53,199 bases of DNA, from NCBI GenBank assembly GCA_021774795.1, contig JAJFIR010000052.1, forward strand, positions 1 through 53,199, read 5' to 3'. Under the pieces are notes generated by a model. It had not been told where the DNA came from and made no database searches. It saw nothing but the letters and a program-made list of their open reading frames with translations. This stretch comes from Emcibacteraceae bacterium (GTDB taxonomy: Bacteria; Pseudomonadota; Alphaproteobacteria; Sphingomonadales; Emcibacteraceae). Positions 1,077 through 17,078 of the stretch are shown piece by piece; position 1 is the stretch's first letter, and the number at the start of each line of letters is the position of its first letter. A program made the translations under genes and the position numbers.

Positions 1077-2099
1077 ATGGATAAATTTAAAATAGGTATA
1101 ATTGGTGCTGGCGGCATTGCAGATGTGATGATGGGTGCCTTTAAATTAGCGACGAATGTTGAAGTATCTGCCGTTACCAGTCGCCGCCTTGAAACAGCAA
1201 CCATGTTTGCAGATAAACATAATATCAGTGAAGTTTATCCTTCATGGCAGGAAATGATATTATCAAAAAATATTGACGCGATTTATGTGGCGACACCATC
1301 AAATATAAAGGAAGAAATCTGCATTGCGGCCGCAGGTTTAGGGAAGCATATTCTAGCGGAAAAACCATTTGTCAGTTTTTCTTCACTTGAAAAAATAACA
1401 AATGCGTGCAGGTCAAATAGTGTTGCCTTTTTAGACGGCACTCATTTCGTTCACAACCCCCGCACAAAACAAATTAAAGATAACATGGCATCGGAAATTG
1501 GGTCGCCAAAAGTCGTAAGGTCGACTTTTTATTATCCGCTCGAAGATACAAGCAACATTCGTTTCGATGTGTTTAAAGAACCTTTAACGTCGGTCGGCGA
1601 TTTAGGTTGGTATAACATACGGGCAATCGTTGAATTTCTTGATCCTGAAACTGAAATATTAAATGTTAAAGCAAGCCGGGAGGTGGACAATGAAACAGGT
1701 GCCATAGTGCGGGCAGGCGGCATTATCACCTATAAAGATGGCAAGACATCCACTTTCGATTTTGGCTTCGATTTGGGAGTTTGTCTGATGGATTTGGACA
1801 TTATTGGTGATCGGGGTCTTATTCGGCTTGATGACTTTGTCCTTGATTGGAAAAGTGGCCTTGGCTTTGATAATAAAGAACATGTTTTGGGATATTCCTT
1901 GCGGCAAGGTATGGAGGAGCCGAAAGATTGGACTTATATGCCGGTGCAAAGCGAAAAACCGCAAGCGGTAATAATGATCGAGAATTTTGCTAAAATGGCA
2001 ACAGACCCGTCGGGGAATGAGGCTATTGCATCAATAAATGCGTCGTTGAAAACACAAAAAATATTGGATGCTGTTTTTGAGGCGTGCGATGAGAATTAA
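1077..2099 (+). CDS. Gfo/Idh/MocA-family NAD(P)-dependent oxidoreductase
   Basis: A 340-residue protein with an N-terminal Rossmann fold starting IGIIGAGGIAD (residues 6-16) and the family's EKP motif at 95-97, in AEKPF, where the lysine contacts cofactor and substrate. A C-terminal alpha/beta substrate domain with GDLGWYNIRA follows, as in the GFO_IDH_MocA_C families. Members oxidise or reduce sugars, inositols and 3-keto sugars. The gene is convergent with glcF and the two coding regions overlap by four bases (2096-2099). Its place beside a sugar-oxidising cluster suggests a sugar or keto-sugar substrate, but this is inference. The ribosome binding site is weak (GGTAGCGG, spacing somewhat long). 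Confidence 0.88.
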   Translation: MDKFKIGIIGAGGIADVMMGAFKLATNVEVSAVTSRRLETATMFADKHNISEVYPSWQEMILSKNIDAIYVATPSNIKEEICIAAAGLGKHILAEKPFVSFSSLEKITNACRSNSVAFLDGTHFVHNPRTKQIKDNMASEIGSPKVVRSTFYYPLEDTSNIRFDVFKEPLTSVGDLGWYNIRAIVEFLDPETEILNVKASREVDNETGAIVRAGGIITYKDGKTSTFDFGFDLGVCLMDLDIIGDRGLIRLDDFVLDWKSGLGFDNKEHVLGYSLRQGMEEPKDWTYMPVQSEKPQAVIMIENFAKMATDPSGNEAIASINASLKTQKILDAVFEACDEN

Positions 2100-3373
2100 G
2101 CTTTCAATCCCACCGGTTTTTTACCGCCCGTAGCCCAATTTATCAACTCAATAGTATGAAGAGTAGGTATTTTAGTTCCGGAAGATAGTTGTACGATACA
2201 CCCAAGGTTGCCGGTGGCTATTACCTGTGCATTTGTAGCCTTTATGTTGGATAACTTACGGCTTCTTAGCCTTTTTGCGATATCGGGATGAGTAATATTA
2301 TATGTCCCTGCTGATCCACAACAAATGTGGCTTTCGTTTATGGCGTGTACTTTATATCCGGCCTGCTCGAGTAACTGCATTGGCAGATCAATAATTTTTT
2401 GACCATGCTTTAAAGAACACGCTGGATGGTAAGCGACACTCGGTAAATCTGATGATGTAACGTCGCCGAGCCCAATATCGGCGACGACCTCCGTTATGTC
2501 CTTAGCAAGGTCCGATATGGCATTTGCTCTTTCTGCGTAAATTGGATCGTCTTTAAACAAATAACCGTAGTCTTTTATAGTAGTGCCACATCCAGACGTA
2601 TTTATAACGATAGCATCTAATTTTCCGTTTACCAGTTCATCTGTCCATCCATCGATATAAGCTTTAGCGGTCTTAATTGAAATGTCTTCTTTTCCCATAT
2701 GTTGCGTGAGCGATCCACAACAGCCCATTGAGGGTGGTGCGACAATTTCTACACCGCGCCTCGATAAAAAATCCACGGTCGCCGTGTTGATGTTTTCTCC
2801 TATAACCCGTTGTACACATCCCGCGTGAAGTCCCATTCTATATTTTTTGGCACCGTTTGTTGCTGTAAGTGCTGCTACTTGGTCTATACTTTTTTGCGGC
2901 ATAAGTTCAAGCATTGCTCTAAGCTCTTTTGGCAATAACATTTTGACCGGTTTTGCAATGAACGAGAGCGATATTAGCCACTTGAGAATTCTTGGCCTGA
3001 CTAAAACATAAGCCAGACATTTTCTAAGCATTTTATCTTTGAGCGGACGCTGATATGTTTTTTCAATATGGTTTCTGGCATGATCGATCAGGTGCATATA
3101 GTCCACCCCCGAAGGGCAGGTTGTTACGCAAGAAAGGCAGGATAAGCATTTATCGATATGTTCGACCTCTACTTCGGTTGCGGCACGATCATTTTCCAGC
3201 ATCTCTTTAATAAGATAAATTCGTCCTCGCGGGCTGTCTAATTCATTGCCCAGCAGGATATATGTGGGGCATGTCGCCGTGCAAAAGCCGCAGTGGACGC
3301 AATTTCGAATTATACCTTCTGCATTTGCGGTTTTCGGGTCCCCTAACTGTGCTTTGTTAAACCTGGTTTGCAT
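2096..3373 (-). CDS. glcF: Glycolate oxidase iron-sulfur subunit GlcF
   Basis: A 425-residue protein with two ferredoxin-type 4Fe-4S motifs (C25, C28, C31, C35 and C76, C79, C82, C86) followed by two cysteine-rich CCG domains, visible as GCCGS around residue 218 and HPACSLKHGQ plus CCGSAG in the C-terminal third. This is the GlcF architecture: it takes electrons from the flavin subunits GlcD/GlcE and passes them to the respiratory chain. It is the last gene of the minus-strand operon, two bases after glcE. The length is usual for the family. The substrate of the complex may be glycolate, lactate or another 2-hydroxyacid. Confidence 0.93.
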   Translation of the reverse strand: MQTRFNKAQLGDPKTANAEGIIRNCVHCGFCTATCPTYILLGNELDSPRGRIYLIKEMLENDRAATEVEVEHIDKCLSCLSCVTTCPSGVDYMHLIDHARNHIEKTYQRPLKDKMLRKCLAYVLVRPRILKWLISLSFIAKPVKMLLPKELRAMLELMPQKSIDQVAALTATNGAKKYRMGLHAGCVQRVIGENINTATVDFLSRRGVEIVAPPSMGCCGSLTQHMGKEDISIKTAKAYIDGWTDELVNGKLDAIVINTSGCGTTIKDYGYLFKDDPIYAERANAISDLAKDITEVVADIGLGDVTSSDLPSVAYHPACSLKHGQKIIDLPMQLLEQAGYKVHAINESHICCGSAGTYNITHPDIAKRLRSRKLSNIKATNAQVIATGNLGCIVQLSSGTKIPTLHTIELINWATGGKKPVGLKA

Positions 3374-3375
3374 GT

Positions 3376-4530
3376 TTATCCACCAAGCCTTCTAGGATTT
3401 AGAATGTTTTTGGGGTCGAAAGCTTTTTTGACCTTCGTCATTATCATGTTGGTCGCGGCATCTTTTATATTTGTAAATGGGTAAATTGATGGATCACCTT
3501 CAGGTGTGCGAATAAGCCAGTAGGCCCCGTTTTCAATTTTTGGTATCTCGTCTGATGCCATCCAAATCAATCCGCCGGCCCAATCAAAATAATAGAAATC
3601 CGGCTTATGATGGTTGATTAAGTCAGGTGCATATGTCGCAGGAACACATATTTTCCACAGTGGTTTATCGGCTGGTGGGTGTGTTGGTGCCACATTACAA
3701 ATAACAGACCATATAAATTTGCTTTCTTCGGTTTCACGCAGGCTAAACGAATATTTATTTATTAGTTTCAGGATAGCGTCACTGCGTTCTTTTATGGAGA
3801 CAGAGGCCCCTTCCAGGCGCAGAATGGTCGTCGCACTGCCCTGTGAAATAGTTTTTGCGATATTCATCGGCAAATGCGCAAGACCACTTGTTTCAATTGG
3901 ACTCATCGCAATTCTTGACATTAATTGAATGGCTTGCTTATCATTTAATCCGTGAACTAGAAATGAAATTTCGGCCTCAGGTATAGGTGATAATTTTAAC
4001 GTAAATTCGGTGAGTGCGCCCAGCGTTCCATATGAACCGGCCATTAATTTGCTGATATCATAACCGGTAACATTTTTAACAACTTTACCACCAGATTTGA
4101 AGGTTTTTCCATACCCCGAAACGCCCTCAACACCCAAAATGAAATCTCTTGCGCCACCTCCTAAAAAGCGTTTAGGTCCCGATAAATTACAGCCAATGAT
4201 ACCGCCTATAGAACCCATATCTTTTTGATTTCCAAATAAGGGGCCATAGTCAGGAGGCTCAAACCTTAGTTCTTGATTATATTTCGCGAGCATATTCACA
4301 AGTTCTGATAGTTTCACTCCCGGTCCCAATGTTATGACCAATTCTTCAGGTTCATAGGAAGTAATTTGGTCAAATTTCTTTAACGATAAGATAGAGTCTG
4401 TTGCCATTTTTTGGCCAAGGTTAATGAGGCTGCCATTGGTGCGCACCTCCACTTTTTGACCACTTATAATATTATCACCGATAATTTCGGATACGTCGTT
4501 TGTAGTCTCTGGAAAATAAACGTTTGTCAT
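3376..4530 (-). CDS. glcE: Glycolate oxidase FAD-binding subunit GlcE
   Basis: A 384-residue protein with an N-terminal PCMH-type FAD-binding domain (VRTNGSLINLGQ, later GSIGGIIGCNLSGPKR and GGKVVKNVTGYDISKLMAGSYG). This is the shortened, catalytically supporting flavin subunit of the glycolate oxidase complex; the C-terminal region ends FDPKNILNPRRLGG, typical of the FAD-linked oxidase family. It shares one base with glcD (stop/start overlap at 4530), so the two are translationally coupled, and is followed two bases later by glcF. Confidence 0.92.
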   Translation of the reverse strand: MTNVYFPETTNDVSEIIGDNIISGQKVEVRTNGSLINLGQKMATDSILSLKKFDQITSYEPEELVITLGPGVKLSELVNMLAKYNQELRFEPPDYGPLFGNQKDMGSIGGIIGCNLSGPKRFLGGGARDFILGVEGVSGYGKTFKSGGKVVKNVTGYDISKLMAGSYGTLGALTEFTLKLSPIPEAEISFLVHGLNDKQAIQLMSRIAMSPIETSGLAHLPMNIAKTISQGSATTILRLEGASVSIKERSDAILKLINKYSFSLRETEESKFIWSVICNVAPTHPPADKPLWKICVPATYAPDLINHHKPDFYYFDWAGGLIWMASDEIPKIENGAYWLIRTPEGDPSIYPFTNIKDAATNMIMTKVKKAFDPKNILNPRRLGG

Positions 4531-6017
4531 TAGAAACGCGGTATATCAGGAAACAGGAGTTTACCACCATGCACGTGTATTTTACCCAGTTCCGCGCAGC
4601 GGTGCAGCGCGGGAAACATCTTGCCGGGATTTAAGCGGTGGTTTGGATCAAAGGCGCATTTCAGTCTTTCTTGCTGATTAAGGTCGGCCTCAGTGAACAT
4701 TTCATGCATCAGGTCGCGTTTTTCTACACCGACACCGTGTTCGCCGGTTAAGGCACCGCCCATTTCTACGCAGAGTTTCAAGATTTCCGCTCCAAATTCT
4801 TCCGCGTTTTCAAGCTCGCCCGGCTTATTAGCATCATAAAGTATTAATGGGTGTAAATTGCCATCACCGGCGTGGAACACGTTGGCAACCTTAAGCCCGT
4901 AATGCTCGGATAAGTCATTCATTTTTTGAAGTATTTCGGGAAGTTTTCTTCGGGGGATGGAGCCGTCCATGCAATAATAATCGGGCGATATCCGACCGAC
5001 CGCCGGAAATGCGGCCTTGCGTCCTGCCCAAAACCCGTCCCTTTCTTGCTCTGTATTACTTACTGCGATGGATGTTGCGTTCAGCTCTTTGGCGATATTG
5101 GAAACGCGGTCGATGAAATAGTCAACTTCGCTGGCGACGCCATCAAATTCAGCGATTAAAATCGCTGCCGCGCGCCTCGGATATCCGGGATGGCAGAAAT
5201 CTTCTGCGGCGTTAATAGCAATATTATCCATCATTTCCATTCCGGCAGGAATAATTCCTGCGGCTATCGTTTTCGATACACAAGCGCCCGCATTTTCCAC
5301 ATCGGAAAATCCAATAAGCATGGCTCTTGCTGTTTCCGGCTTTGGTAATATTTGCACAGTGACTTCAGTGATGATGCCTAGTAAACCTTCGGAACCGGTA
5401 AGCAGTCCTAAAAGGTCGTAACCACTTTCTTGTTGATATTTTCCACCAATCTCTAGTATTTCACCAGAAAGTAATACCAGTTTAATACCCAGTATATTAT
5501 TGGTGGTAAGTCCATATTTTAAACAATGTACGCCACCTGAATTTTCTGCGACGTTGCCACCGATTGTGCAGGCAATCTGACTAGAAGGGTCAGGTGCATA
5601 ATAAAACCCTTTTTCGCAAACGGCATCAGTAATGCCCAAATTGGTAACACCACATTCAACAACTGCGCAGCGATTTACATAATCAATTTCCAAAATGCGA
5701 TTTAGCCGAGAAAGTCCGAGCGTTAAACCATCCGCGAGTGGAAGTGCGCCACCGGAAAGTGATGTGCCTGCACCTCTCGCGACAACTTTAATATTGAGTT
5801 CATTACATATTTTTAATATTTCGCTGACTTGGCTTGTGGTGTTGGGTAAGGCAACAATCATCGGACTTTGTCGGTAGGCTGTTAATCCGTCACTTTCAAA
5901 AGCCTTTAGGCCATATTCCGATGTCACTATGCCTTCCTGGCCAAGCAAACTGGTCAACCGCTTGGTAAGTTCCGGCAATTGATCCAAAATACTTTGTTCC
6001 GGTTTTGGCATCTTCAT
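4530..6017 (-). CDS. glcD: Glycolate oxidase catalytic flavoprotein GlcD
   Basis: A 495-residue FAD-linked 2-hydroxyacid dehydrogenase. The PCMH FAD-binding domain contains VVARGAGTSLSGGALPL and the C-terminal domain has HAGDGNLHP and the metal/substrate region GALTGEHGVGVEKRDLM, both diagnostic of GlcD and D-lactate dehydrogenases. It oxidises glycolate or a related 2-hydroxyacid to the 2-oxoacid. It starts 23 bases after the MFS transporter gene and is first of the contiguous glcD-glcE-glcF set, so uptake and oxidation genes share a transcript. The substrate is not determined by sequence alone. Confidence 0.94.
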   Translation of the reverse strand: MKMPKPEQSILDQLPELTKRLTSLLGQEGIVTSEYGLKAFESDGLTAYRQSPMIVALPNTTSQVSEILKICNELNIKVVARGAGTSLSGGALPLADGLTLGLSRLNRILEIDYVNRCAVVECGVTNLGITDAVCEKGFYYAPDPSSQIACTIGGNVAENSGGVHCLKYGLTTNNILGIKLVLLSGEILEIGGKYQQESGYDLLGLLTGSEGLLGIITEVTVQILPKPETARAMLIGFSDVENAGACVSKTIAAGIIPAGMEMMDNIAINAAEDFCHPGYPRRAAAILIAEFDGVASEVDYFIDRVSNIAKELNATSIAVSNTEQERDGFWAGRKAAFPAVGRISPDYYCMDGSIPRRKLPEILQKMNDLSEHYGLKVANVFHAGDGNLHPLILYDANKPGELENAEEFGAEILKLCVEMGGALTGEHGVGVEKRDLMHEMFTEADLNQQERLKCAFDPNHRLNPGKMFPALHRCAELGKIHVHGGKLLFPDIPRF

Positions 6018-6040: not shown

Positions 6041-7357
6041 TTATTCGCTTAATGCATTTTCCGCTTTTAGCTTAGCAATTCGGCGATCATTATACCAGAC
6101 ACCACCAAATATAACGAGCAAGGCAATGGGGAGTAGAGCAACCGTTTGAAAGGACTTTTCAGCAGCAAATATTAGTGAATTGGTGTGCTCGATGCTGCCT
6201 TCTGCCATCGCTGCAAATGCGTCTGCCCCGCCCGCGGCTTCCAGTTTCGCTTTATCATAAGCAGCACCGAGGATTGGCAAAACAATATATGTGGACATAG
6301 CTCCCGCAGAACCGATTAGACCAATTGTCCAGGCACCACCACGCGGATATCTTTCCGCAGCAGAAGCAAGCATCGTTGGCCACATAAAGCAAACACCTGC
6401 ACCCCATATTGTCGCGGCGATAATGCCGGTAACGGGCGAGTCCGCTACACTTAACATATAAAGCCCGACGCAGGTAAATAACGCAGAGAACCAAAGTAAA
6501 CCGACGGCCGAAATTTTATGAGCAATCGGGCCGGCAAAATGCCGCATTACAAACATTATACCACTTACATACACCAATAGCAGAATACCGCGCATACCAA
6601 CAGTATGGGTTAGCGCAAGGTCAACCCATTGACCGGGTGCAAGTTCTGATGCTGCCGTTAAGAACATGGCACCGAACCAAATGAAGAAACTGGGGCGTCG
6701 GAAAATTTCTTTGATCATATCGCCAAAGCTAACATCGAGATCAGAACTTTCAGTTTTTGGGAATTTCACGCCGATATTTAGTGCGCCAAATGCTATTGCT
6801 GGAATGAATATTAATGAAAGCGCTATTTGCCAGTTAAGGCCAGTGGAATTAACTGCAATCCCTGATAATCCACCGACCACCAAGCCAGCCGGCCACCATG
6901 CGTGCAGAACGTTTAATCGGTGCGTTTTATCCTCCGGGTAGAGTGCTGCTGTCGCAGGATTAATAGCGGATTCAACCAATCCCCATGCAATTCCCTTAAG
7001 CAGCATACCGAACCAAAGTGCCCAATAGATACCCATACCACTGGTGATATCGCCCGCAAAGATGAGTATTGCATTTCCAACAATTATTAGTGTTGCAGCG
7101 GCGGCGAGGGCGCGGCCCATACCAATTACGTCCATAAACGGGCTAACGCAAAAAAGCGTTATAGAAAATCCAAGAAATATAATGCCAAGAATTTGGCCGA
7201 TCATGGTTGCCGAGGTCGTAAAATCTATCGGATCGAGGAAATTTGATTTTAAATCGGCGGCCACCGTTGCGCCAAGCGACATTGAAACAGCTATGGTAAA
7301 AAGGGCAAGGATACATATCAGGAAAATTCTGCCGTTGTCATATTGTTCATTCGTCAT
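6041..7357 (-). CDS. Major facilitator superfamily transporter
   Basis: A 438-residue integral membrane protein with about twelve hydrophobic segments, a central polar loop around residues 200-220 (GVKFPKTESSDLDVSF) and a positively charged C-terminus. An MFS sugar or organic-acid carrier is the natural reading. It has a good ribosome binding site (GGAG eight bases before the ATG) and sits directly upstream of glcDEF in the same operon, so it may import the hydroxyacid that the oxidase consumes, or a precursor of it. Substrate assignment is inference from context. Confidence 0.88.
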   Translation of the reverse strand: MTNEQYDNGRIFLICILALFTIAVSMSLGATVAADLKSNFLDPIDFTTSATMIGQILGIIFLGFSITLFCVSPFMDVIGMGRALAAAATLIIVGNAILIFAGDITSGMGIYWALWFGMLLKGIAWGLVESAINPATAALYPEDKTHRLNVLHAWWPAGLVVGGLSGIAVNSTGLNWQIALSLIFIPAIAFGALNIGVKFPKTESSDLDVSFGDMIKEIFRRPSFFIWFGAMFLTAASELAPGQWVDLALTHTVGMRGILLLVYVSGIMFVMRHFAGPIAHKISAVGLLWFSALFTCVGLYMLSVADSPVTGIIAATIWGAGVCFMWPTMLASAAERYPRGGAWTIGLIGSAGAMSTYIVLPILGAAYDKAKLEAAGGADAFAAMAEGSIEHTNSLIFAAEKSFQTVALLPIALLVIFGGVWYNDRRIAKLKAENALSE

Positions 7358-7373: not shown

Positions 7374-7811
7374 TTATTTTGAAAAACGTTCCTTCAAAGC
7401 GTTGAACCCACCCTGAAAAACATCATTTGCCACCATATTTTCTTTTTCTTCTTCTTCGCCGGGTGCTGTCGTAAATTCAGCCGTCCATTGAATATAAGTA
7501 CGCTCCCCGTCTGTAATGGGCCTTAGTTCAACAGACGCAATATAGTCATATAAACCTAGACCAGTATCAATCATGCTGTATGAGAATGAAAAATCAAGAT
7601 CTGATAAGGCAATTAGTTGTTCACGAACATTTTGCCCGTCTGCGAGATAGAAATTTCTTATGCACCCGACTGTGTCGGGGTGAAGTCCGTCTTCAATTTC
7701 ACTACGGTCAACGGCCGGGTGCCAATTGGGCATAGCGTTGTAGCCACGCACGACCTCCCATACTTTGTCTATGGGGGCGTCAATCACGGTTGTGACAAAT
7801 ACGTTAATCAT
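7374..7811 (-). CDS. SRPBCC-superfamily (polyketide cyclase/START-like) protein
   Basis: A 145-residue protein beginning MINVFVTTVIDAPIDKVWEVV, the typical first strand and helix of the SRPBCC ligand-binding fold, followed by NAMPNWHPAV and alternating beta strands. I chose the ATG at 7811 because GGAGAG lies four bases upstream; a longer frame to 7844 would add eleven residues without a binding site. Members bind hydrophobic ligands or act as cyclases; no catalytic residues can be assigned. It lies between the UPF0261 gene and the MFS gene in one operon, so a role in the same pathway is likely but unknown. Confidence 0.85.
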   Translation of the reverse strand: MINVFVTTVIDAPIDKVWEVVRGYNAMPNWHPAVDRSEIEDGLHPDTVGCIRNFYLADGQNVREQLIALSDLDFSFSYSMIDTGLGLYDYIASVELRPITDGERTYIQWTAEFTTAPGEEEEKENMVANDVFQGGFNALKERFSK

Positions 7812-7873
7812 AATTCTCTCCATATTGTTTACGAGCGAACACAAAAATTTATGTTCAACGGCTTCGTTATTCT

Positions 7874-9076
7874 TTAATTTATCAATTCAATATAATTATC
7901 TGCGATAGCTTTGGCAAAAGCCGGGTCATTTATGTGACAAGGAAGCTTAACAATAACCGTTGCGCTGGATGTTGTAGCTTCTTCTAACGCTTGAATGAAC
8001 GCCTCATTCGCCTCACGGTCATAAAAATTTTGACCTTCTTTATCAAGAGCAGAAAAACCTTCTAGTGGGATCAAGAAACGGCTAGGTGCTTTAAATTTAT
8101 TTAATTTATTGCCAATCCACCTTCCCATTCGGGCGTTCTCCGCTGCGGTGGTTCGCATCAGAGTGATTTGCGGGTTATGCTCATAAAAAAGCCGATCCGC
8201 ATATTTTTCAGGCACAGTGGAATGAGCCCCGAAATTAACCATATCTATGGCACCACAGGAGCCAACATAGGGTGTTTTATTACGAATAAATGAGTCAAGC
8301 CGCCCCTCGCCGGCACTCAATATTCCACCCATAAGATGATCGGCAACTTCCGTGGTTGTTACGTCGATAACACCTGTCAAAAGACCGTTATCAACTAACT
8401 TTTCCAGTGTCTGTCCCCCTGTGCCTGTCGCATGAAAAACCAGACATTGATTATCTGGTTCAAGATGCGATTTTACCTGTTCTACACATGTTGTCGTAAC
8501 CCCGAACATTGTCAAACCAACAACGGGTTTTAATGATTGTTCGGGAATATATCTGTTCGCAATCATTCCACAAAGGGCATGCGCGGCATTAGATAGAACC
8601 TGTTCTAATATCGGATTTAAGCCACTTATATCGGTAATCGAATACATCATACAAATATCGGAAGCACCGACATAAGGTGCAATATTGCCTGACGCAATTG
8701 TTGATACAATTATTTTCGGAACACCAATAGGTAGTTGCTGAAACGCAGGACTTATTAAGGCGGTTCCACCGGACCCACCGAAACCAATTACGCCTTTTAG
8801 GTCATTTTGTTTTACTAAATAATTTTTAAACGCCTCTGCCATTGCGGCTACGGCACTGCCCCGGTCCCCTGTGAAAACGGCATCAATTCCGCCTGGATGA
8901 TTTACCGCGACTTCGGTGGCAGATACATCCGCTTGATCACTTCCCGTTTTTGAAGATGTGCCCAGATCAATAGTGACGGATTTTATACCTTGTTCGGTTA
9001 TAAGGTCGCGTACAAATTTAAGTTCATCAGATTTTGTATCAAATGTCCCAACAATATATGCGGTTTTTTCCGTCAA
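7874..9076 (-). CDS. UPF0261 / Tm-1-like ATP-binding family protein
   Basis: A 400-residue protein matching the Tm-1-like/UPF0261 family: N-terminal YIVGTFDTKSDELKFVRDLI, then GDRGSAVAAMAEAF, GVIGFGGSGGTALISPAFQQLPIGVPKI split into glycine-rich ATP-binding loops, and the C-terminal half typical of the TIM-barrel part. The plant homologue Tm-1 binds ATP and inhibits a viral replicase; the bacterial function is not established. Bacterial copies are often found with sugar or aromatic catabolic genes. Here it is the first gene of the operon that ends in glcDEF, and a conserved 43-bp element lies 57 bases upstream of its start. Confidence 0.88.
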   Translation of the reverse strand: MTEKTAYIVGTFDTKSDELKFVRDLITEQGIKSVTIDLGTSSKTGSDQADVSATEVAVNHPGGIDAVFTGDRGSAVAAMAEAFKNYLVKQNDLKGVIGFGGSGGTALISPAFQQLPIGVPKIIVSTIASGNIAPYVGASDICMMYSITDISGLNPILEQVLSNAAHALCGMIANRYIPEQSLKPVVGLTMFGVTTTCVEQVKSHLEPDNQCLVFHATGTGGQTLEKLVDNGLLTGVIDVTTTEVADHLMGGILSAGEGRLDSFIRNKTPYVGSCGAIDMVNFGAHSTVPEKYADRLFYEHNPQITLMRTTAAENARMGRWIGNKLNKFKAPSRFLIPLEGFSALDKEGQNFYDREANEAFIQALEEATTSSATVIVKLPCHINDPAFAKAIADNYIELIN

Positions 9077-9133
9077 ACTTATTTCCTGCTGATTCCCTAA
9101 CTTATGTAAAATATAAGAAATTTTAAGGAAACC

Positions 9134-9176
9134 GTATTGGTGAATAAAGTTTATTTTTTAGGAAAAAAGCGTCATC
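9134..9176 (-). promoter_or_regulatory. Conserved 43-bp regulatory element, copy B (minus operon)
   Basis: Read on the minus strand it begins GATGACGCTTTTTTCCTAAA and ends TTATTCACCAATAC. It matches copy A (9936-9977, plus strand) at about 36 of 43 aligned positions, far above the surrounding AT-rich background. It lies directly after the stop codon of the AraC gene and 57 bases before the UPF0261 start, pointing into that operon. The likeliest role is a binding site for the PAS-AraC regulator. Confidence 0.7.
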
Positions 9177-9923
9177 CTAGGTGTTAAAAGTTCTTTTAAT
9201 TGAGTGTTGTTTTATATAATTCATCGGCGTAATACCAATTTGTTTCTTGAAATGTGAACTAAACGCGCTTTGGTCATAAAACCCTAGTTTATGCGCTGTT
9301 TCTGATATGCTGTAGTTGCCAGCTATAAGCATATCGCAAGATTTTAGTATCCTTAAGTTTAAAATATATTGATGTGCACTTGTGTTGAACATTTGTTTGA
9401 ACCGTTTCTCAAACTGGCGTACAGATAGCCCTGCCACTTTGGCCATGTCATCATTACAAATTTTTTTCGTATAATTATCTTTTAGGTAAATTAATGCCTT
9501 GGAAATATCATTAAACGGTCTTAAATTTACTGAAGAATCTTCGAGCTTTTGTAACGCACCACAAAGTCCCTGTACTTGCCCTTCTGCGTCGATGATAGGA
9601 ACTTTATTACATATAAACCAACCTACTTCACCCATATGGTTGGGAAATAGTTCAATAATGTTCAGTTTGCTTTTTGCAGTATCAAATACTTCGTTGTCAT
9701 CTTTGCGGTATTGAACCGCTAATTCATGGGTGAACAGATCAAAATCATTTTTTCCCTTTACGAGTTCAACATTTTTAAAACCAAAATGTTCTGCAAATAA
9801 TTGATTGCTGTTCATGAGTGTGCTTTGAGTGTCTTTTACAAAAAGCATAAGATCACTTATTCCGTCAAAAAGATGAGAAAAATGCGGTGAAGTTATATAA
9901 TTCATGGTGTTTGAAATTGACAT
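9177..9923 (-). CDS. AraC-family transcriptional regulator with N-terminal PAS domain
   Basis: A 248-residue protein. Residues about 10-128 look like a PAS sensor (FDGISDLMLFVKDTQSTLM, later EVGWFICNKVPIIDAEGQV), and the last hundred residues form the two helix-turn-helix motifs of the AraC family (MAKVAGLSVRQFEKRFKQMF and SISETAHKLGFYDQSAFSSH). Such PAS-AraC proteins sense a small ligand, usually a sugar metabolite. The gene lies between the two catabolic operons, divergent from the GMC operon and upstream of the UPF0261-glcDEF operon. Matching 42-43 bp elements flank it on both sides and are the probable targets. Confidence 0.9.
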   Translation of the reverse strand: MSISNTMNYITSPHFSHLFDGISDLMLFVKDTQSTLMNSNQLFAEHFGFKNVELVKGKNDFDLFTHELAVQYRKDDNEVFDTAKSKLNIIELFPNHMGEVGWFICNKVPIIDAEGQVQGLCGALQKLEDSSVNLRPFNDISKALIYLKDNYTKKICNDDMAKVAGLSVRQFEKRFKQMFNTSAHQYILNLRILKSCDMLIAGNYSISETAHKLGFYDQSAFSSHFKKQIGITPMNYIKQHSIKRTFNT

Positions 9924-9935
9924 GATACAAGTTCC

Positions 9936-9977
9936 GATGACGCTTTTATCCTAAATAAAGTACCTTATTCACAATAC
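9936..9977 (+). promoter_or_regulatory. Conserved 42-bp regulatory element, copy A (GMC operon)
   Basis: On the plus strand it begins GATGACGCTTTTATCCTAAA and ends TTATTCACAATAC. It lies in the divergent region between the AraC start (9923) and the first GMC gene (10066), oriented toward the GMC operon and 88 bases before its start. It is the partner of copy B at 9134-9176. A possible -35 hexamer TTGCAA begins a few bases after it (9979-9984). Confidence 0.7.
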
Positions 9978-10065
9978 ATTGCAAGGTCATTTTTGTAGTA
10001 ATTAATGATATTTGTGGAATGGCTTGGGAATAGTGAGGACAGGGATAAAGAACCAGGGAGAGAAA

Positions 10066-11793
10066 ATGGCAGACGAAAATGAAGTTATAGTCGTCGGTTC
10101 AGGCGCGGGTGGTGGAATGATGGCCCATACATTAACCGACGCCGGTGTAAATGTACTGCTACTTGAGGCCGGTAGAAGATATGATGCAGAGACCGATGCT
10201 GCCATGTTCCAATTACCAATGGAAGCACCACTTCGCGGTGAAGGAACTCCAGATAAGAATGATGGTTATTTTGATGCCAATATTGGGGGATATGAAATGC
10301 CTGGACAGCCATATACGCTGTCTGGAGGCAAGTTTAGGTGGTGGCGGTCGAGACAACTCGGCGGAAGGACACATCATTTTGGCAGACAAGTGCCGCGCTA
10401 CGGCCCTGAAGATTTTAAAGTTCATACGATGACGGGACGGGAAATTGACTGGCCTTTTTCTTACGATGATATCGAGCCTTATTACGACCGGGTAGAAACC
10501 ATTATAGGATTGTTTGGCCCGGACCCGGATAAGGCAGTCTATAATTCACCGCAATCCCCTAATCATATTCGACAGGAACCACCTGCACCACGGGCAAGCG
10601 AAATGCTTTTTGCAAAGGCTTGTGAAAAAATGGGCATTAAAACTATGGCTCATCCTACGGCGATATTAACATCTCCGCTAAATGGAAGAGAAGCCTGCTT
10701 CTATGCCACTAACTGCATTAGAGGCTGTTCAATTGGTGCTGCGTTTGATAGTGTGACTGCTTATATTAAGCCTGCCGAAGAAACCGGCAAATTGTCTATT
10801 ATCACTGGTGCCGTCGCTTATAAGGTGTTGACCGATGATAGCGGTAAACGTGCGACGGGTATCCGTTATATTGACACTGAAACAGGTGAGCACCGCGAAG
10901 TGTTTGCTAAATTTGTTGTGCTCGCCCCTGGCTCAATGGAAAGCGCGCGTATATTGCTCAACTCTAAATCGGAAAAAGCACCAGATGGTCTTGCAAATTC
11001 ATCCGGTATGGTAGGTAAATATATTTCAGATACGATGTTTACATCGCTATGGATACATATTCCGCAGCTTGATTATGCGCCGCCCCACAATGAAGATGGT
11101 GTCTCGCAACCTCATATTTATGCGCCTTGGTGGTTGCATGGTGAAGAAAAAGAAAAAGACGGCGCAGATTTTTCAGGTGGTTATAAGCTTGAAGTGGACC
11201 CCTATAGAGGAGGTCGGTTTGGGCCGCCATCTATGAAGGCAACATTTGGTATTATGCTGCACGGTAGAAAAGGCCTATACGGGGATAAACTAAAGGATCA
11301 TATGCGCAGATATTATGGTTCTTTATTGGGTATTCGCACGCTCGGTGGAATGTCAGTTAATGAAAACTGTTATTTGACCATAGATCCCGATGTAAAAGAC
11401 AAGTGGGGAATACCCGTGCCGAAGTTTCATTGGCAGTGGTCGGATGAAGATTATAGACGGGGTGTTCATATGAATAAAACGCTTCATGAGCTGGCAAAAA
11501 ATATGGGTGCGACGGTTGTAAGGGATGCGTTTGACGAATCCCGAAAAGCCGGTAAATTTGTGGAAACGGGCGGTGAGACCAACCATGAGATTGGTGGATG
11601 CCGTATGGGAACTTCGCCCAAAAATTCAGTGCTAAATCAATATTCGCAGACATGGGATGTGGATAATTTATATGTCGCAGACGGCGCGCCTTTCGTGACA
11701 CATGTAGAAAAAAACCCTACACTGACGATTATGGCAATGTCTATGCGTGCAGCAGATAATATTATAGAACGACTTAAGGAGAATAACTTATGA
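10066..11793 (+). CDS. GMC-family FAD oxidoreductase, large subunit (copy 1)
   Basis: A 575-residue flavoprotein with the FAD dinucleotide-binding motif GSGAGGG at residues 11-17 and the C-terminal GMC catalytic region: NHEIGGCRMG with the active-site His, and KNPTLTIMAMSMRAADN with the second catalytic residue. The start at 10066 (MADENEV) is chosen because GGGAGAG is three bases upstream; the frame is open 18 codons further. It has no signal peptide of its own and is followed, with a four-base overlap, by a Tat-signal small subunit, so it is probably exported as a complex. Relatives oxidise sugars or glycosides, including at C3; the ThuA-DUF1080 gene downstream favours a glycoside 3-dehydrogenase, but this is inference. 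Confidence 0.9.
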   Translation: MADENEVIVVGSGAGGGMMAHTLTDAGVNVLLLEAGRRYDAETDAAMFQLPMEAPLRGEGTPDKNDGYFDANIGGYEMPGQPYTLSGGKFRWWRSRQLGGRTHHFGRQVPRYGPEDFKVHTMTGREIDWPFSYDDIEPYYDRVETIIGLFGPDPDKAVYNSPQSPNHIRQEPPAPRASEMLFAKACEKMGIKTMAHPTAILTSPLNGREACFYATNCIRGCSIGAAFDSVTAYIKPAEETGKLSIITGAVAYKVLTDDSGKRATGIRYIDTETGEHREVFAKFVVLAPGSMESARILLNSKSEKAPDGLANSSGMVGKYISDTMFTSLWIHIPQLDYAPPHNEDGVSQPHIYAPWWLHGEEKEKDGADFSGGYKLEVDPYRGGRFGPPSMKATFGIMLHGRKGLYGDKLKDHMRRYYGSLLGIRTLGGMSVNENCYLTIDPDVKDKWGIPVPKFHWQWSDEDYRRGVHMNKTLHELAKNMGATVVRDAFDESRKAGKFVETGGETNHEIGGCRMGTSPKNSVLNQYSQTWDVDNLYVADGAPFVTHVEKNPTLTIMAMSMRAADNIIERLKENNL

Positions 11794-12425
11794 GTGAAAA
11801 CCAGGAAAAGTTAAGTCCTAATCGCAGAAGGGTGCTCCAACTTATGGCGGTGGCAGGCGCGTCAGCGGCATACTTAAATAATTATCCTAACTCTGGTGCA
11901 AAAGCGCAAACGAGACAAAAAGGCTATGGCCAGGATGTGGATGTCAATAATCCGGTGGTGACATGGGATAAAACGTTAAATAATAATCAGCTACTGAACC
12001 TTACGGTTATTGGTGATCTGATCATACCGACGGATGATAAATCACCAAGCGCCAGTCATCTTAATATAACCGATTTTGTTGATGAATGGGTGAGCGCTCC
12101 ATATCCGGAACAGGAAAAAGACAGAGAAGCCATTGTTAGCGGACTAGATAGATTAAATATTCAGGCAAATAGGCAGGACGCTCGCTTTTTTCATAACTTA
12201 AACGCCGATCAGCAAGCGGCTATCTTCGATACTCTTGCCAAATCGGTCGAAGCGGGATCAGCAAGTGCAGATGATGACTTCTTCTTTGAGCGGCTAGTTT
12301 ATATTTATGTTGGCGGGTTTTATACGACCGATGAAGGGATGGCAGATATTGGCTATGTGGGCAATGTTCCTATGGAATCGTTTGATGGACCACCGGAAGA
12401 AGTTCGTAAACTTCTTGGTGTTTGA
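11790..12425 (+). CDS. Gluconate 2-dehydrogenase subunit 3-family small subunit, Tat-exported
   Basis: A 211-residue protein whose N-terminus carries a twin-arginine signal (NRRRVLQLMAVAGASAA, residues 11-27). The remainder matches the gluconate 2-dehydrogenase subunit 3 family: a helical partner of GMC flavoproteins, with LTVIGDLIIPTDDKSPSA in the first third. Its role is to carry the cytoplasmically folded flavoprotein through the Tat system and to stabilise it in the periplasm. It overlaps the preceding GMC gene by four bases and lies between the two GMC genes, so it may serve both large subunits. No cytochrome c subunit is encoded nearby; the electron acceptor is unknown. Confidence 0.88.
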   Translation: MSENQEKLSPNRRRVLQLMAVAGASAAYLNNYPNSGAKAQTRQKGYGQDVDVNNPVVTWDKTLNNNQLLNLTVIGDLIIPTDDKSPSASHLNITDFVDEWVSAPYPEQEKDREAIVSGLDRLNIQANRQDARFFHNLNADQQAAIFDTLAKSVEAGSASADDDFFFERLVYIYVGGFYTTDEGMADIGYVGNVPMESFDGPPEEVRKLLGV

Positions 12426-12443: not shown

Positions 12444-14174
12444 ATGGCCGATGAATTTGATGTAATAATTGTAGGGTCGGGTGCCGGTGGCGGCATGATG
12501 GTGCACACCTTGACCGCAGCGGGTATAAATGTCCTCCTTATGGAAGCAGGACGTCGTTATGATCCTGAAACGGAAGCGGCAATGTTTCAATTGCCAAACG
12601 AAGCACCGTTAAGAGGAGAAGGTACGCCGGATAAGAATGACGGTTATTTTGATGCTACCGTCGATGGCGGCTTTGAAATTCCCGGCCAGCCATATTCTTC
12701 AGAAGGGGATGGTTTTAAGTGGTGGCGTGCACGTCAATTGGGCGGAAGAACACACCATTTTGGCCGGCAGGTGCCGCGGTACGGTCCTGAGGATTTTAAA
12801 GCGCTTACCTATACCGGTAAGCAATATGACTGGCCCGTTTCTTATGAAGATATGGAGCCATATTATGACCGGGTCGAAACCATCATGGGACTTTATGGCC
12901 CGGATGCGGATGATGCTGTCTATAATTCGCCGCAATCGCCTAATCACATCCGGCAAAAACCGCCAGCACCACGGGCGACGGAAATGGTATTTGCCAAAGC
13001 CTGCGAAAAAATGGGTATTAAAACAATGGCGCATCCGACGGCCGTTTTGACATCGCCGCTTAATGGAAGGCAAGCTTGCTTTTATGCGACGAACTGCATC
13101 CGTGGTTGCACAATTGGTGCCGCTTTTGATAGTGTGACAGCATATATCAAACCAGCGGAAGAAACGGGAAATCTTACCATTTTACCTAACTCTATTGCCT
13201 ATCAGGTTCTTACCGATGATAGCGGAAAAAAGGCCACAGGTGTTCGCTATATTGATAAGGAAAGCAAAGAACAAAGGGAAATTACTGCTCGTGTGGTGGT
13301 ACTTGCGCCAAGTGCTATGGAAAGCTCACGTATTTTACTTAATTCAAAAAGTGATAAAGCCCCTAGGGGATTAGCTAATTCTTCTGGTAATGTTGGAAAG
13401 TATCTTTCCGATACAACGGGTTCATTTTTGCTTATTCAAATTCCCGCATTTGAAAATTTGCCACCTCATAACGAAGATGGAGTTTCTCAACCCCATCTTT
13501 ACGCGCCCTGGTGGTTGCACGGTGAAGAAAAGAAAAAGGCCGGTGCTAATTTTGTCGGTGGATATAAACTTGAAGTTGACCCCTATGGCGGTGCCCGTCA
13601 TGGGCCGCCATCAATGAGAGCGACTTTTGCTCAAATGCTAACGGGACAAAAAGGTCTTTACGGTAAAAAATTGAAGGATCACATGAGACAGTTTTACGGT
13701 TCTGTTATGGGAATACGCTGTTTGGGTAGCATGACGGTTACTGAAAACAATTATTTAACTGTCGATGAAGATGTGAAAGATAAATGGGGCGTCCCGGTTC
13801 CAAAATTTCACTGGCATTGGTCGGATGATGACTTTAGACGCGCCCAACATATGAACGAAAGCCTGCATGAACTGGCGAAAAATATGGGTGGTAGAGTATT
13901 AAGGGACGGATTTGACGCGTCACGCAAAGCCCGAAAACTGATTAGCATGGGCGGAACCACCAATCATGAAGTTGGAGGTTGTCGGATGGGAGATGATCCC
14001 AAAACGTCTGTTTTGAATAAACATTGCCAGACTTGGGATGTTGATAATCTTTATGTTGCCGATGGCGCAGGTTTCGTTACCCATTCAGAGAAAAATCCGA
14101 CTTTGACCATCATGGCACTATCCATGCGTGCTGCTGACAATATAATTGAAAGATTGAAAAATAATGAAATTTGA
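12444..14174 (+). CDS. GMC-family FAD oxidoreductase, large subunit (copy 2)
   Basis: A 576-residue paralogue of the gene at 10066; by eye roughly three quarters of residues are identical along the full length, and it starts at the same MADE-type N-terminus with GSGAGGG at residues 11-17. The GMC catalytic region is intact (NHEVGGCRMG and KNPTLTIMALSMRAADN). It starts 18 bases after the small subunit gene. The duplication is old enough for clear divergence in loops such as LISMGG and SSEGDGFKWWRA, so the two enzymes may differ in substrate. No signal peptide; export together with the small subunit is likely. Confidence 0.9.
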   Translation: MADEFDVIIVGSGAGGGMMVHTLTAAGINVLLMEAGRRYDPETEAAMFQLPNEAPLRGEGTPDKNDGYFDATVDGGFEIPGQPYSSEGDGFKWWRARQLGGRTHHFGRQVPRYGPEDFKALTYTGKQYDWPVSYEDMEPYYDRVETIMGLYGPDADDAVYNSPQSPNHIRQKPPAPRATEMVFAKACEKMGIKTMAHPTAVLTSPLNGRQACFYATNCIRGCTIGAAFDSVTAYIKPAEETGNLTILPNSIAYQVLTDDSGKKATGVRYIDKESKEQREITARVVVLAPSAMESSRILLNSKSDKAPRGLANSSGNVGKYLSDTTGSFLLIQIPAFENLPPHNEDGVSQPHLYAPWWLHGEEKKKAGANFVGGYKLEVDPYGGARHGPPSMRATFAQMLTGQKGLYGKKLKDHMRQFYGSVMGIRCLGSMTVTENNYLTVDEDVKDKWGVPVPKFHWHWSDDDFRRAQHMNESLHELAKNMGGRVLRDGFDASRKARKLISMGGTTNHEVGGCRMGDDPKTSVLNKHCQTWDVDNLYVADGAGFVTHSEKNPTLTIMALSMRAADNIIERLKNNEI

Positions 14175-14218
14175 GTGAGGATCATTATTCAAATATCGTT
14201 AACATCCAGGACCATAAT

Positions 14219-15571
14219 ATGAAAAGAATTTTCACGTTACTATCTGTTTTGTTTGTATTTTATGCAAATGCTGCATTTTCAAAAGAAAATATTCAAGTCA
14301 TGGTTTATTCGGATACGGGTCCGGGTGGATGGATACATAAATCTATACCGAAAGGTATTGAAACTGTAAAATCTATTGGAAAAACCCAAGGTTGGGATGT
14401 TGATGTGCATTATAGCGAAACTTCGTTCAATCGGCATACGCTTTCGCAATATGATGTGGTGGTCTTTTTAAATACCACAGCTGACGTTCTTAATGATGAT
14501 CAACAAAAGGCGTTTGAACAATATATTCAAGCGGGTGGTGGTTATGTGGGAACTCATTCTGCTTCCGATACTGAATATGACTGGCCGTGGTATGCGAAGT
14601 TGGTTGGCGGCTATTTTAAAACCCATCCTGAAGGCGTACATCTCGCAAAGGTGAATATGGAAAACACAGATCATCCTGCTCATATTTATGTGGAAGAAAC
14701 AGGTATAGTTATGGACGAATGGTATGATTTTCAAGCCAACCCGCGGGATAGTAAAAATCTAACCATATTGATGACCATTGATGAAAGCACTTATGAAGGC
14801 GGCGGGATGGGCACCGACCATCCCATCGCGTGGGCTCATGAATATGATGGTGGTCGCGCTTTTTACACGGGCTTCGGGCATTTATTTCAATCGGATCATC
14901 CATTTTTGGTGAAGCATTTAACGGGCGGTATTATGTGGGCGGCTGGCGCGCACAAAGATGAAGTGTCGCTATTTGACGGTGAGACCTTATCTGGCTGGAA
15001 CACAGTCGACGATGACATGTGGCGTGTCGAAAACGGTATGATTACTGGCGGGTCGTTAGAAGAAGTTGTGCCGACAAATACCTTTTTAATAACTGATGGA
15101 AATTACCAAAATTTTGAACTTAAATTTAAAGTCCGGTTATTGGGTTATGAAGGCTTCATTAACTCAGGGTTTCAAGTACGTAGTGTTCCGGTTCCAAATA
15201 GTGGAGAGATGAGCGGGTATCAAGTTGATGCTGGTGATTTATGGTGGGGGAAAATATATGACGAGGCCCGCCGAAATAAAGTTGTTGGCTTATCGGAAGA
15301 TATGTATGCGGTCGATACGGCCGTAAAACGTGGTGAGTGGAATGAATATCGGATCATTGCCGAGGGTCGCCGTATTCGGTCGTGGATAAATGGCGTTGCT
15401 GCATTAGATTATCTGGAAGAAGATGAAAGCCTTCCGCAAGACGGGCATATAGGTATCCAGGTACATAGTGGCGGTAAAGCACTGGTCCAAGTGAAGGATA
15501 TTAGGATTACCCCGACAGCAAATACACCCGGCTTACCTATCTGGGCAGAGACTGGCATGCCAGAAGGTTAA
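14219..15571 (+). CDS. Exported ThuA-domain plus DUF1080 (3-keto-glycoside hydrolase-like) protein
   Basis: A 450-residue protein with a signal peptide (MKRIFTLLSVLFVFYANAAF). The start at 14219 is preferred because AGGA lies upstream and the signal peptide begins there; the frame is open 16 codons earlier. Residues about 25-245 form a ThuA (trehalose-utilisation) class-I-glutamine-amidotransferase-like domain with GGYVGTHSASDTEYDWPWY and GRAFYTGFGH. Residues about 260-440 form a DUF1080 domain (SLFDGETLSGWNTVDDDMWR, later NSGFQVRS). DUF1080 proteins are known to cleave 3-keto-glycosides. This fits the two upstream GMC dehydrogenases that could make such products. Confidence 0.87.
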   Translation: MKRIFTLLSVLFVFYANAAFSKENIQVMVYSDTGPGGWIHKSIPKGIETVKSIGKTQGWDVDVHYSETSFNRHTLSQYDVVVFLNTTADVLNDDQQKAFEQYIQAGGGYVGTHSASDTEYDWPWYAKLVGGYFKTHPEGVHLAKVNMENTDHPAHIYVEETGIVMDEWYDFQANPRDSKNLTILMTIDESTYEGGGMGTDHPIAWAHEYDGGRAFYTGFGHLFQSDHPFLVKHLTGGIMWAAGAHKDEVSLFDGETLSGWNTVDDDMWRVENGMITGGSLEEVVPTNTFLITDGNYQNFELKFKVRLLGYEGFINSGFQVRSVPVPNSGEMSGYQVDAGDLWWGKIYDEARRNKVVGLSEDMYAVDTAVKRGEWNEYRIIAEGRRIRSWINGVAALDYLEEDESLPQDGHIGIQVHSGGKALVQVKDIRITPTANTPGLPIWAETGMPEG

Positions 15572-15671: not shown

Positions 15672-17078
15672 ATGGGCAAAGTGATTAAAATAATATTGGC
15701 TGTGTTGGGGGCTTTCTTGCTGGTAGCAGAATTCGCGTCTCCGCTTATTTTAAGTCCTACAGCCGGTATATTTATCAATCCGTCCTCTTCAACCAATGGT
15801 CTTTACATCATTGAAGCCAATGACAACGAATATATAGAGGGGCCGTCGCCAATAAGCTTTAGCCATATTGAACTGGACGATGAATATAATACAGAAGGGG
15901 CTTCAGTCGCTGATATTAATAACGACGGACTACCGGATGTGGTAACGGGTCATTATTGGTATGAAGCACCATCTTGGCAGCGGCATACGATAAGGGTCCC
16001 GCTTCAGGATGCCGTCGGCATTCCTAAACTTTCCGATCATATTAAGATATTTATTGAAAGTGGCGGCGAAAAAGACATTTGGTCAAAAGCGTATCCGCTG
16101 GCTTTTTTTAGTTTCCATGATGATGTCAATAAAGATGGCTGGATCGATGTCATAGCCGTTGATATCACCAGTGCAGGAATCTGGTGGTTTGAAAACCCCA
16201 ACGGTGTAGAAGGAGAGTGGCCGCAACATCACATTATAGACTTTAGCCGCAATGAAAGCCCGATTTTTGCTGATGTTCTAGGTACAGGGAAGCCACAAGT
16301 TATTACAGGGGCCGCGGAGACCGCAGATGCTTCGGGTAAATTATATGCAATTGAATTTCCTGAAACTGGCGGTTTTGAAATTCATACTATTGAAGCTGAA
16401 AATGAAGGACGTAATACCGGAGCAACCCTGCCGACCCACGGTCTTGGATACGGTGATATTAATGGTGACGGCCTAATGGATGTTGTTTTTGGATCCGGTG
16501 AAGGGTTCCTTGATCGCGCAGGCAATCCAGCTGAGCGACAATCATATGATGAAGGCGGATGGTACGAACAACAAATGTCTTCTGATGATGTAAGATCATG
16601 GAAATGGCATGTGATCGATCCTATGGTTTCGCTCTCGCAAATTCAGGTGACCGACGTAAATGGTGACGGTAAAGATGATTTGATCAGTGGCATGGGCCAT
16701 GGCAGGGGGCTATTCTGGTGGGAACAGGCTGAAAATGATCAATGGATTGCCCATTTGATCGATGATACGTACACACAGCTTCACGCTACGGAAATGGCGG
16801 ATATTGATGGTGATGGTGTAGGAGATATAATAACCGGTAAAACACCGCTTGCGCATATGGGATTAAAAGACCCGGATGAATTTGGCACCCCCTATTTATA
16901 TTGGTATAAAATTATCAAGAATTCAGACGGCGAAACCCGTTTTGAACGTCATTTAATTGACGACAATGTGGGTGTCGGACGTCAGATCACAGTGACGGAC
17001 ATCAATAATGATGGAATGTTAGATGTGGCCTCAGGAACCCGTCACGGTTTGCATATATTTTTGCAGCAAAGAAAGTAA
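15672..17078 (+). CDS. Exported VCBS/FG-GAP repeat protein
   Basis: A 468-residue protein with an N-terminal hydrophobic segment (MGKVIKIILAVLGAFLLVAE) acting as signal peptide or membrane anchor. It contains about six FG-GAP/VCBS repeats recognisable by calcium-binding DxNxDGxxD motifs: DINNDGLPD, DVNKDGWID, DINGDGLMD, DVNGDGKDD, DIDGDGVGD and DINNDGMLD. Such proteins form beta-propellers and are often encoded next to DUF1080 and GMC genes. Function is unknown; carbohydrate binding or lectin-like assistance is a guess. The C-terminus abuts the stop of the convergent PhoD gene with no space between them. Confidence 0.87.
   Translation: MGKVIKIILAVLGAFLLVAEFASPLILSPTAGIFINPSSSTNGLYIIEANDNEYIEGPSPISFSHIELDDEYNTEGASVADINNDGLPDVVTGHYWYEAPSWQRHTIRVPLQDAVGIPKLSDHIKIFIESGGEKDIWSKAYPLAFFSFHDDVNKDGWIDVIAVDITSAGIWWFENPNGVEGEWPQHHIIDFSRNESPIFADVLGTGKPQVITGAAETADASGKLYAIEFPETGGFEIHTIEAENEGRNTGATLPTHGLGYGDINGDGLMDVVFGSGEGFLDRAGNPAERQSYDEGGWYEQQMSSDDVRSWKWHVIDPMVSLSQIQVTDVNGDGKDDLISGMGHGRGLFWWEQAENDQWIAHLIDDTYTQLHATEMADIDGDGVGDIITGKTPLAHMGLKDPDEFGTPYLYWYKIIKNSDGETRFERHLIDDNVGVGRQITVTDINNDGMLDVASGTRHGLHIFLQQRK

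Follow-up and report, generated by a model that had tools for sequence, protein, structure and literature searches.

The window analysed here is a stretch of 53,199 nucleotides from an Emcibacteraceae bacterium (contig JAJFIR010000052.1 of assembly GCA_021774795.1), in which a regulator gene stands between two rows of metabolic genes. The regulator gene (9177–9923, minus strand) encodes 248 amino acids with a PAS_4 domain and an AraC-type helix-turn-helix region (Pfam PF08448, PF12833 and PF00165), and its product is the proposed binding protein of two short DNA elements at the edges of the gene. Spacing and strand suggest that each gene row forms one transcript, and the rows are referred to below as operon A and operon B.

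Operon A (plus strand) comprises a GMC oxidoreductase (10066–11793; PF05199, PF00732), a gluconate 2-dehydrogenase subunit 3 type protein (11790–12425; PF13618), a second GMC oxidoreductase (12444–14174; PF05199, PF00732), a fusion of ThuA with a 3-keto-disaccharide hydrolase (DUF1080) domain (14171–15571; PF06283, PF06439) and an FG-GAP/VCBS repeat protein (15672–17078; PF13517). The first gene probably starts at the ATG at 10066, since relatives align from residues 16–21 of the longer frame that opens with TTG. The predicted DUF1080 domain matches PF06439 at 5.2e-36 and its gene lies beside the two GMC genes and the PF13618 gene. Operon B (minus strand) begins with a UPF0261 (Tm-1-like) protein (7874–9076; PF06792, PF23189), a family that Pfam labels as uncharacterised, followed by an SRPBCC (Polyketide_cyc2) protein (7374–7844; PF10604), an MFS transporter (6041–7357; PF07690), a GlcD-type FAD subunit (4530–6017; PF01565, PF02913), a GlcE-type FAD subunit (3376–4530; PF01565) and a GlcF-type iron-sulfur subunit (2096–3373). 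Against the curated NCBIfam cut-offs, the GlcF-type protein scored above its threshold (NF008434; 440 bits versus 333), and the GlcD-type (672.9 versus 897 and 527.9 versus 567.9) and GlcE-type (218.7 versus 284) proteins scored below theirs. Judged by these scores the three subunits would not together qualify as glycolate oxidase GlcDEF, and because GlcD and GlcE fall short glycolate is not to be assumed as the substrate.

Two similar elements at the edges of the regulator gene

Copy A of the element (9936–9977, plus strand) faces the GMC/DUF1080/FG-GAP operon and lies immediately 5' of the regulator gene, 12 nt upstream of its start codon. Copy B (9134–9176, minus strand) faces the UPF0261-SRPBCC-MFS-glcDEF operon and starts directly after the regulator stop codon, so that the two proposed operators form an inverted repeat around the regulator gene. 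The near-identity that the sequence-only reading had claimed for these positions and strands was confirmed by direct reading: 36 of 43 bases agree, with the first 37 aligning without a gap (31/37, 84%) and one gap thereafter. When the intergenic regions were aligned locally with one another, the score was 29, compared with a mean of 10.4 and a maximum of 20 among 2000 dinucleotide-preserving shuffled pairs of both regions, none of which reached 29. Besides the self match, a BLAST search of the 901-bp region against the whole genome of origin returned only the matches between A and B (84%, E 2.5e-4). The 17-base core, TGACGCTTTTNTCCTAA, occurs free of mismatches only at copies A and B in this 3.93-Mb genome; allowing up to three mismatches it was found at 47 places, both exact ones included, versus 57 for a reversed control pattern, so that the weaker core matches are at chance level. 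The similarity of A and B is beyond chance.

Conservation in related genomes

The regulator was searched for in 99 genomes taken as relatives, the genome of origin included, and was matched at E 1e-25 or better in eight, namely six of the genus (the genome of origin, G003, G004, G005, G007 and G009) and two of other families with 27–28% identity. The five other genus proteins are 86–90% identical to that of the window, the value for G004 covering 136 residues only; the contig of G004 ends inside the regulator. A further search of a named genome collection gave six loci, four from Kordiimonadaceae, one from Alphaproteobacteria and one from Bacillus; the last (L040), a weak match of 24% identity over the DNA-binding part, was dropped. 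The more distant NORP235 (L038; Kordiimonadaceae) has a regulator 70–72% identical to that of the window. Contigs break inside the cluster in G006 and G010, so that the regulator's absence there may be an assembly gap, and both genomes may actually carry the cluster.

Both elements occur with unchanged positions and orientation in the genome of origin, G003, G005, G007 and G009, and copy B is also present in G004. Counting only genus genomes in which the relevant junction is assembled, the genome of origin included, copy A was thus found in 5/5 and copy B in 6/6; NORP235 additionally has both at the expected places with two mismatches each in the core. The earlier reading would have been contradicted by loss of the motif from relatives that keep both operons, and wherever the junctions are assembled its positions and orientations were found to be kept. 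Invariant columns make up 36 of 44 in copy A (five genomes) and 28 of 44 in copy B (six genomes), versus 10 of 56 in the next 56 columns in each case, and the element is better conserved than the DNA just downstream. Pairwise identity between genomes averages 92.5% for A with A (10 pairs) and 86.7% for B with B (15 pairs), and A compared with B gives 79.0% within one genome (5 pairs) and 76.7% across genomes (25 pairs).

The two copies make an inverted repeat (37 bp, 84%) with a single gene inside, and so resemble the ends of a DNA-inversion switch or of a mobile cassette carrying the regulator. Their orientation, however, is the same in six of the six genomes with both copies, NORP235 included, each copy is closer to its counterpart in other genomes than to its partner in the same genome, and the Pfam scan of 20 window proteins named no recombinase. 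The switch or cassette was rejected on the grounds of fixed orientation and separate drift, and we hold it to be next to impossible. Such drift and orientation are as expected of two separately kept operators of one protein and not of recombining repeats. The finding itself is real: one regulator is flanked by a local, conserved pair of operator-like elements that face two operons.

Specificity of the element

The sequences of the 11 genus sites, and nothing else, were used to build a profile, with which 13 genus genomes were searched and the best 150 candidates per genome scored. The 11 sites scored 37.9–51.4 bits and all other candidates 17.4 bits or less, with nothing above 16.5 bits in the seven genus genomes that lack a regulator match (G006 and G010 among them). 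The two NORP235 sites, left out of the profile, scored 22.6 and 17.0 bits. When applied to eight stretches of DNA, the profile recovered the 11 sites, both NORP235 sites and one extra match of 9.2 bits, which lies within copy A of G003 but on the other strand. No further full-length site was found among the best 150 candidates of each of the 13 genomes, a scan that degenerate extra sites may escape, and on this basis a wider regulon was rejected.

Within the genus, genomes have or lack the element, the regulator and operon B jointly, to the extent that the assemblies reveal it. This co-occurrence cannot tell the regulator from another factor, and is also compatible with the elements being operators of a different protein, encoded elsewhere and controlling both operons, while the adjacent regulator has some other role. 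The restriction of the element to both edges of the regulator gene in the scanned candidates nevertheless suits a local regulator, and the rough 21–22 bp repeat described below suits an AraC-type protein; we regard control by a distant factor as quite unlikely.

Promoter anatomy

A putative −10 hexamer for operon B, TATATT, lies at 9110–9115 on the minus strand, 18 nt after the end of copy B. A TATATT-like hexamer was found at this distance from the CAATAC end of copy B in 7/7 genomes, with four to five of six matches to TATAAT (mean 4.86, the next best spacing giving 3.43). For operon A a hexamer, TAGTAA, can tentatively be placed 18 nt after copy A (9996–10001, plus strand), and is weak with 3/6 matches; no spacing stands out at copy A, where 18 nt scores 3.0 and 16 nt scores 3.33. 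A consensus promoter scan of 8950–10150 gave three promoter-like pairs versus 4.6 expected by chance, and no consensus sigma-70 −35/−10 pair at either element, which fits an activator-dependent promoter. One of the promoter-like pairs (9873–9901, plus strand) is located upstream of copy A and could serve operon A. As no terminator was found in 8950–10150, transcription of the regulator could continue into operon B.

Comparison of the left and right halves of each element gave a best shift of 22 for copy B (56% match; 28 of 5000 shuffles reach this value at lags 20–22) and of 21 for copy A (48% match; 467 of 5000). Over all lags of 15–25 the corresponding counts were 77 of 5000 for copy B and 1331 of 5000 for copy A. 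An AraC-type direct half-site repeat in the element is suggestive only, a hint, and a literature search for 21 bp half-sites returned nothing.

In the regulator's own transcript the coding sequence would have one copy on either side, and A and B might base-pair with one another; the element might then act as RNA, whether as a riboswitch, a leader or a long-range hairpin in the regulator mRNA. Copy B lies, however, upstream of the conserved −10 hexamer and hence outside an operon-B mRNA started there, no Rfam match at gathering scores was obtained in 8900–10200, and the sequences of A and B are diverging. Given the position of copy B and the Rfam result this explanation was rejected, and we consider it very improbable.

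The PAS-AraC regulator

The C-terminal half of the regulator matches AraC-type helix-turn-helix models above their cut-offs (PF12833, 5e-21; PF00165, 2.6e-14), and by its sequence the protein has the C-terminal domain with two helix-turn-helix motifs that marks the AraC/XylS family. A structure model of moderate confidence (mean pLDDT 80.8, pTM 0.56, alignment of 8) places this half on the DNA-binding domain of AdpA (3w6v) with a TM-score of 0.85, normalised by 3w6v, at 2.3 Å, and the sequences match at E 1.5e-9. The regulator therefore resembles AdpA and other AraC-type domains in the fold of its C-terminal half, and differs from AdpA in its sensory half and its targets. For the PAS half the nearest solved structures by sequence are those of VqmA (6ugl, Vibrio cholerae VqmA, phmmer E 6.9e-6; 7dwm, E 5.7e-4), and VqmA structures are also the top Foldseek hits to the model. 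Whole-chain superposition on VqmA is poor (TM-scores 0.42–0.50, rmsd about 10–15), so the comparison is limited to domains.

By sequence and fold the PAS domain is of the VqmA type, resembling the PAS sensor of the DPO receptor VqmA of V. cholerae and of its phage homolog. VqmA, in contrast, has a LuxR-type DNA-binding half (entry title of 6ide), and in place of the LuxR-type helix-turn-helix of VqmA-type receptors the present regulator has one of AraC type. Regulator residue K107 aligns with K101 of VqmA, which we take to touch DPO. As none of the four residue names for DPO-binding residues appears in the accessible portions of PMC8284805, no ligand is claimed for the regulator.

The regulator start codon varies, being ATG in the window and G003, ATA in G009, ATT in G007 and G005, and TTG in NORP235 (window 9921–9923; L022:3710-3712, L023:16218-16220, L025:352-354, L026:16080-16082 and L038:9992-9994). 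Among the five genus genomes that were compared, codons 2–6 (SISNT) show synonymous changes only; in G009, G007, G005 and NORP235 the start is preceded by purine-rich, Shine-Dalgarno-like stretches. Taken together, these features make weak initiation of the regulator likely. In another family (G060, L140:14692-15138) part of the regulator has a relative of 31% identity, about 4 kb from the MFS relative and GMC pieces.

Proposed control of both operons

Based on these observations we propose that the PAS-AraC regulator probably binds both elements and activates both operons, and that it likely limits its own gene as well. Each 42–43 bp element would be an operator of the regulator encoded between the copies, occupied by two regulator subunits on two degenerate direct half-sites some 21–22 bp apart. 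The promoter-proximal half-site would end at the expected −35 position, 18 nt before the operon-B −10 hexamer. Activators that touch RNA polymerase at −35 have such a layout. The PAS domain would sense a small molecule, perhaps a pathway intermediate, whereupon both operons would be switched on together, and the regulator bound at copy A would probably also restrain its own gene, since that copy lies just upstream of the regulator start. Co-regulation of the two operons by the regulator between them, as put forward in the earlier reading, accordingly gains from the kept position and orientation of the element and from its confinement to this locus within the genus, with binding, activation, autoregulation and the ligand still matters of interpretation.

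Sequence does not reveal whether control is positive or negative, and copy A overlaps the regulator gene's own upstream region, where repressors often act. The same regulator and operators might thus repress both operons until a ligand releases them, or repress one operon and activate the other. Copy B nevertheless has the layout of an activator site, being at and upstream of the expected −35 position, 18 nt from a −10 hexamer in 7/7 genomes and free of a consensus pair, and we think repression of either operon unlikely.

The activator proposed here has a counterpart, as described in the available part of PMC3900636, in SphR of Pseudomonas aeruginosa, an AraC-family regulator that acts at three promoters with direct repeats of a 15-letter half-site 6–8 bp apart (period 21–23 bp). 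The likeness, drawn from that description, lies in the AraC family, the small regulon and operators of two direct half-sites; unlike SphR, which was shown to bind and to respond to sphingosine, the present regulator has weaker repeats, sites recognised from sequence and a PAS sensor. As a regulatory device the arrangement is ordinary. Its interest lies in the conserved operator pair, which joins two operons otherwise annotated apart and gives UPF0261 a testable metabolic setting.

Constant and variable parts of operon B

UPF0261 was found in seven of the 13 genus genomes: all six in which the regulator was matched, plus G006, where the contig begins within UPF0261. A PEP_hydrolase gene (L023:13332-14165, L025:2401-3228, L027:9705-10535 and L142:879-1709) stands between UPF0261 and SRPBCC in G004, G006, G007 and G009, and is absent from that place in the window (7844–7874), G003 and G005. 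Downstream of the MFS gene, glcD follows in 4/6 genus genomes (the window, G003, G005 and G007), an LldD-like gene in G004, whose best NCBIfam matches are FMN-dependent lactate dehydrogenases scoring below cut-offs, and a class-V aminotransferase in G009. No glcD match at E 1e-60 was found elsewhere in the genomes of G004 and G009; a G004 contig with operon-A genes carries a 31% GlcD-like piece (L133). The constant core of operon B is UPF0261-SRPBCC-MFS and not glcDEF.

The LldD-like gene of G004 (L027:6763-7905) occupies the place of glcDEF and is a possible non-homologous replacement. Relatives of LldD type at E 1e-40 are present in 12/13 genus genomes, and for this reason the swap suggests, and does not prove, equal function. 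An 86% relative of the G004 gene was noted in G001 (L146:4684-5826) on a contig with no other gene of the cluster.

Neighbourhoods outside the genus

UPF0261 was matched in 36 of 385 alphaproteobacterial genomes, the genome of origin included, and of the remaining 35 genomes 20 were examined (L080–L099), chiefly those with the highest scores. PEP_hydrolase lies nearby in 20/20 of these regions (one cut by a contig end), SRPBCC in 17, with at least two SRPBCC genes in 12, and no match to GMC, MFS, GlcDEF or the regulator was obtained at E 1e-6. A link between UPF0261 and GMC is consequently not seen outside the present group.

The MFS transporter of operon B presents a different picture, with a GMC gene within 3.2 kb of its relative in seven of eight cases outside the genus; the eighth, on a 12-kb contig, showed no GMC gene. 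The seven genomes carry three to five GMC genes each, which by our own arithmetic corresponds to an expectation of about 2% per 20 kb. These GMC proteins are mostly 29–35% identical to those of the window, with one of 46% beside a subunit-3 gene (L136), and in view of such low identity they may be different enzymes. The MFS transporter and GMC enzymes go together independently of the element, and the place of UPF0261 and GlcDEF in the link is suggested solely by their operon and the common element.

The earlier proposal that glycolate-oxidase-type genes form part of one sugar-oxidation pathway was too specific, glcD following MFS in 4/6 genomes only, and stands in a looser form given the MFS-GMC neighbourhoods in other families. 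A possible counterpart of operon A is the lacABC/DUF1080 3-keto-glycoside route of Caulobacter, another alphaproteobacterial case of sugar-oxidation genes beside a DUF1080 gene, with which the comparison is by description (PMC9007349, in the part available). Operon A departs from that route in pairing two GMC proteins with one of the gluconate-dehydrogenase-subunit-3 type, and in its fusion of ThuA and DUF1080. For UPF0261, the accessible part of PMC5028733 describes a plant Tm-1-like protein in which it is joined to a TIM-barrel domain. Operon B of G004, G006, G007 and G009 resembles this module of UPF0261 and a PEP_hydrolase TIM barrel, and differs from it in the window, G003 and G005, which have no PEP_hydrolase at this place.

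It is possible, though doubtful, that through the regulator a GMC/DUF1080 3-keto-sugar route is linked both to UPF0261, together with PEP_hydrolase and SRPBCC as its partners, and to a 2-hydroxy-acid dehydrogenase that can be exchanged (GlcDEF or LldD type); UPF0261 would handle a product of the route and the VqmA-like PAS domain would sense one of its small molecules. Literature searches returned nothing that joins UPF0261 to 3-keto or Tm-1-like to glycolate oxidase, and nothing on DUF1080/ThuA/glucoside 3-dehydrogenase.

Several minor observations concern individual loci. The GMC gene of NORP235 (L038:8102-9854) was recovered as three tblastn pieces in three frames, indicating a broken gene or sequence errors. 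Among the other alphaproteobacterial UPF0261 regions, a MocA-type match was noted in L084 and a MocA-family gene in L095. The UPF0261 region of G436 (L086) additionally carries genes of ABC transporter and flotillin type, and a single frame of 765 amino acids there combines UPF0261 with an ABC ATPase domain.
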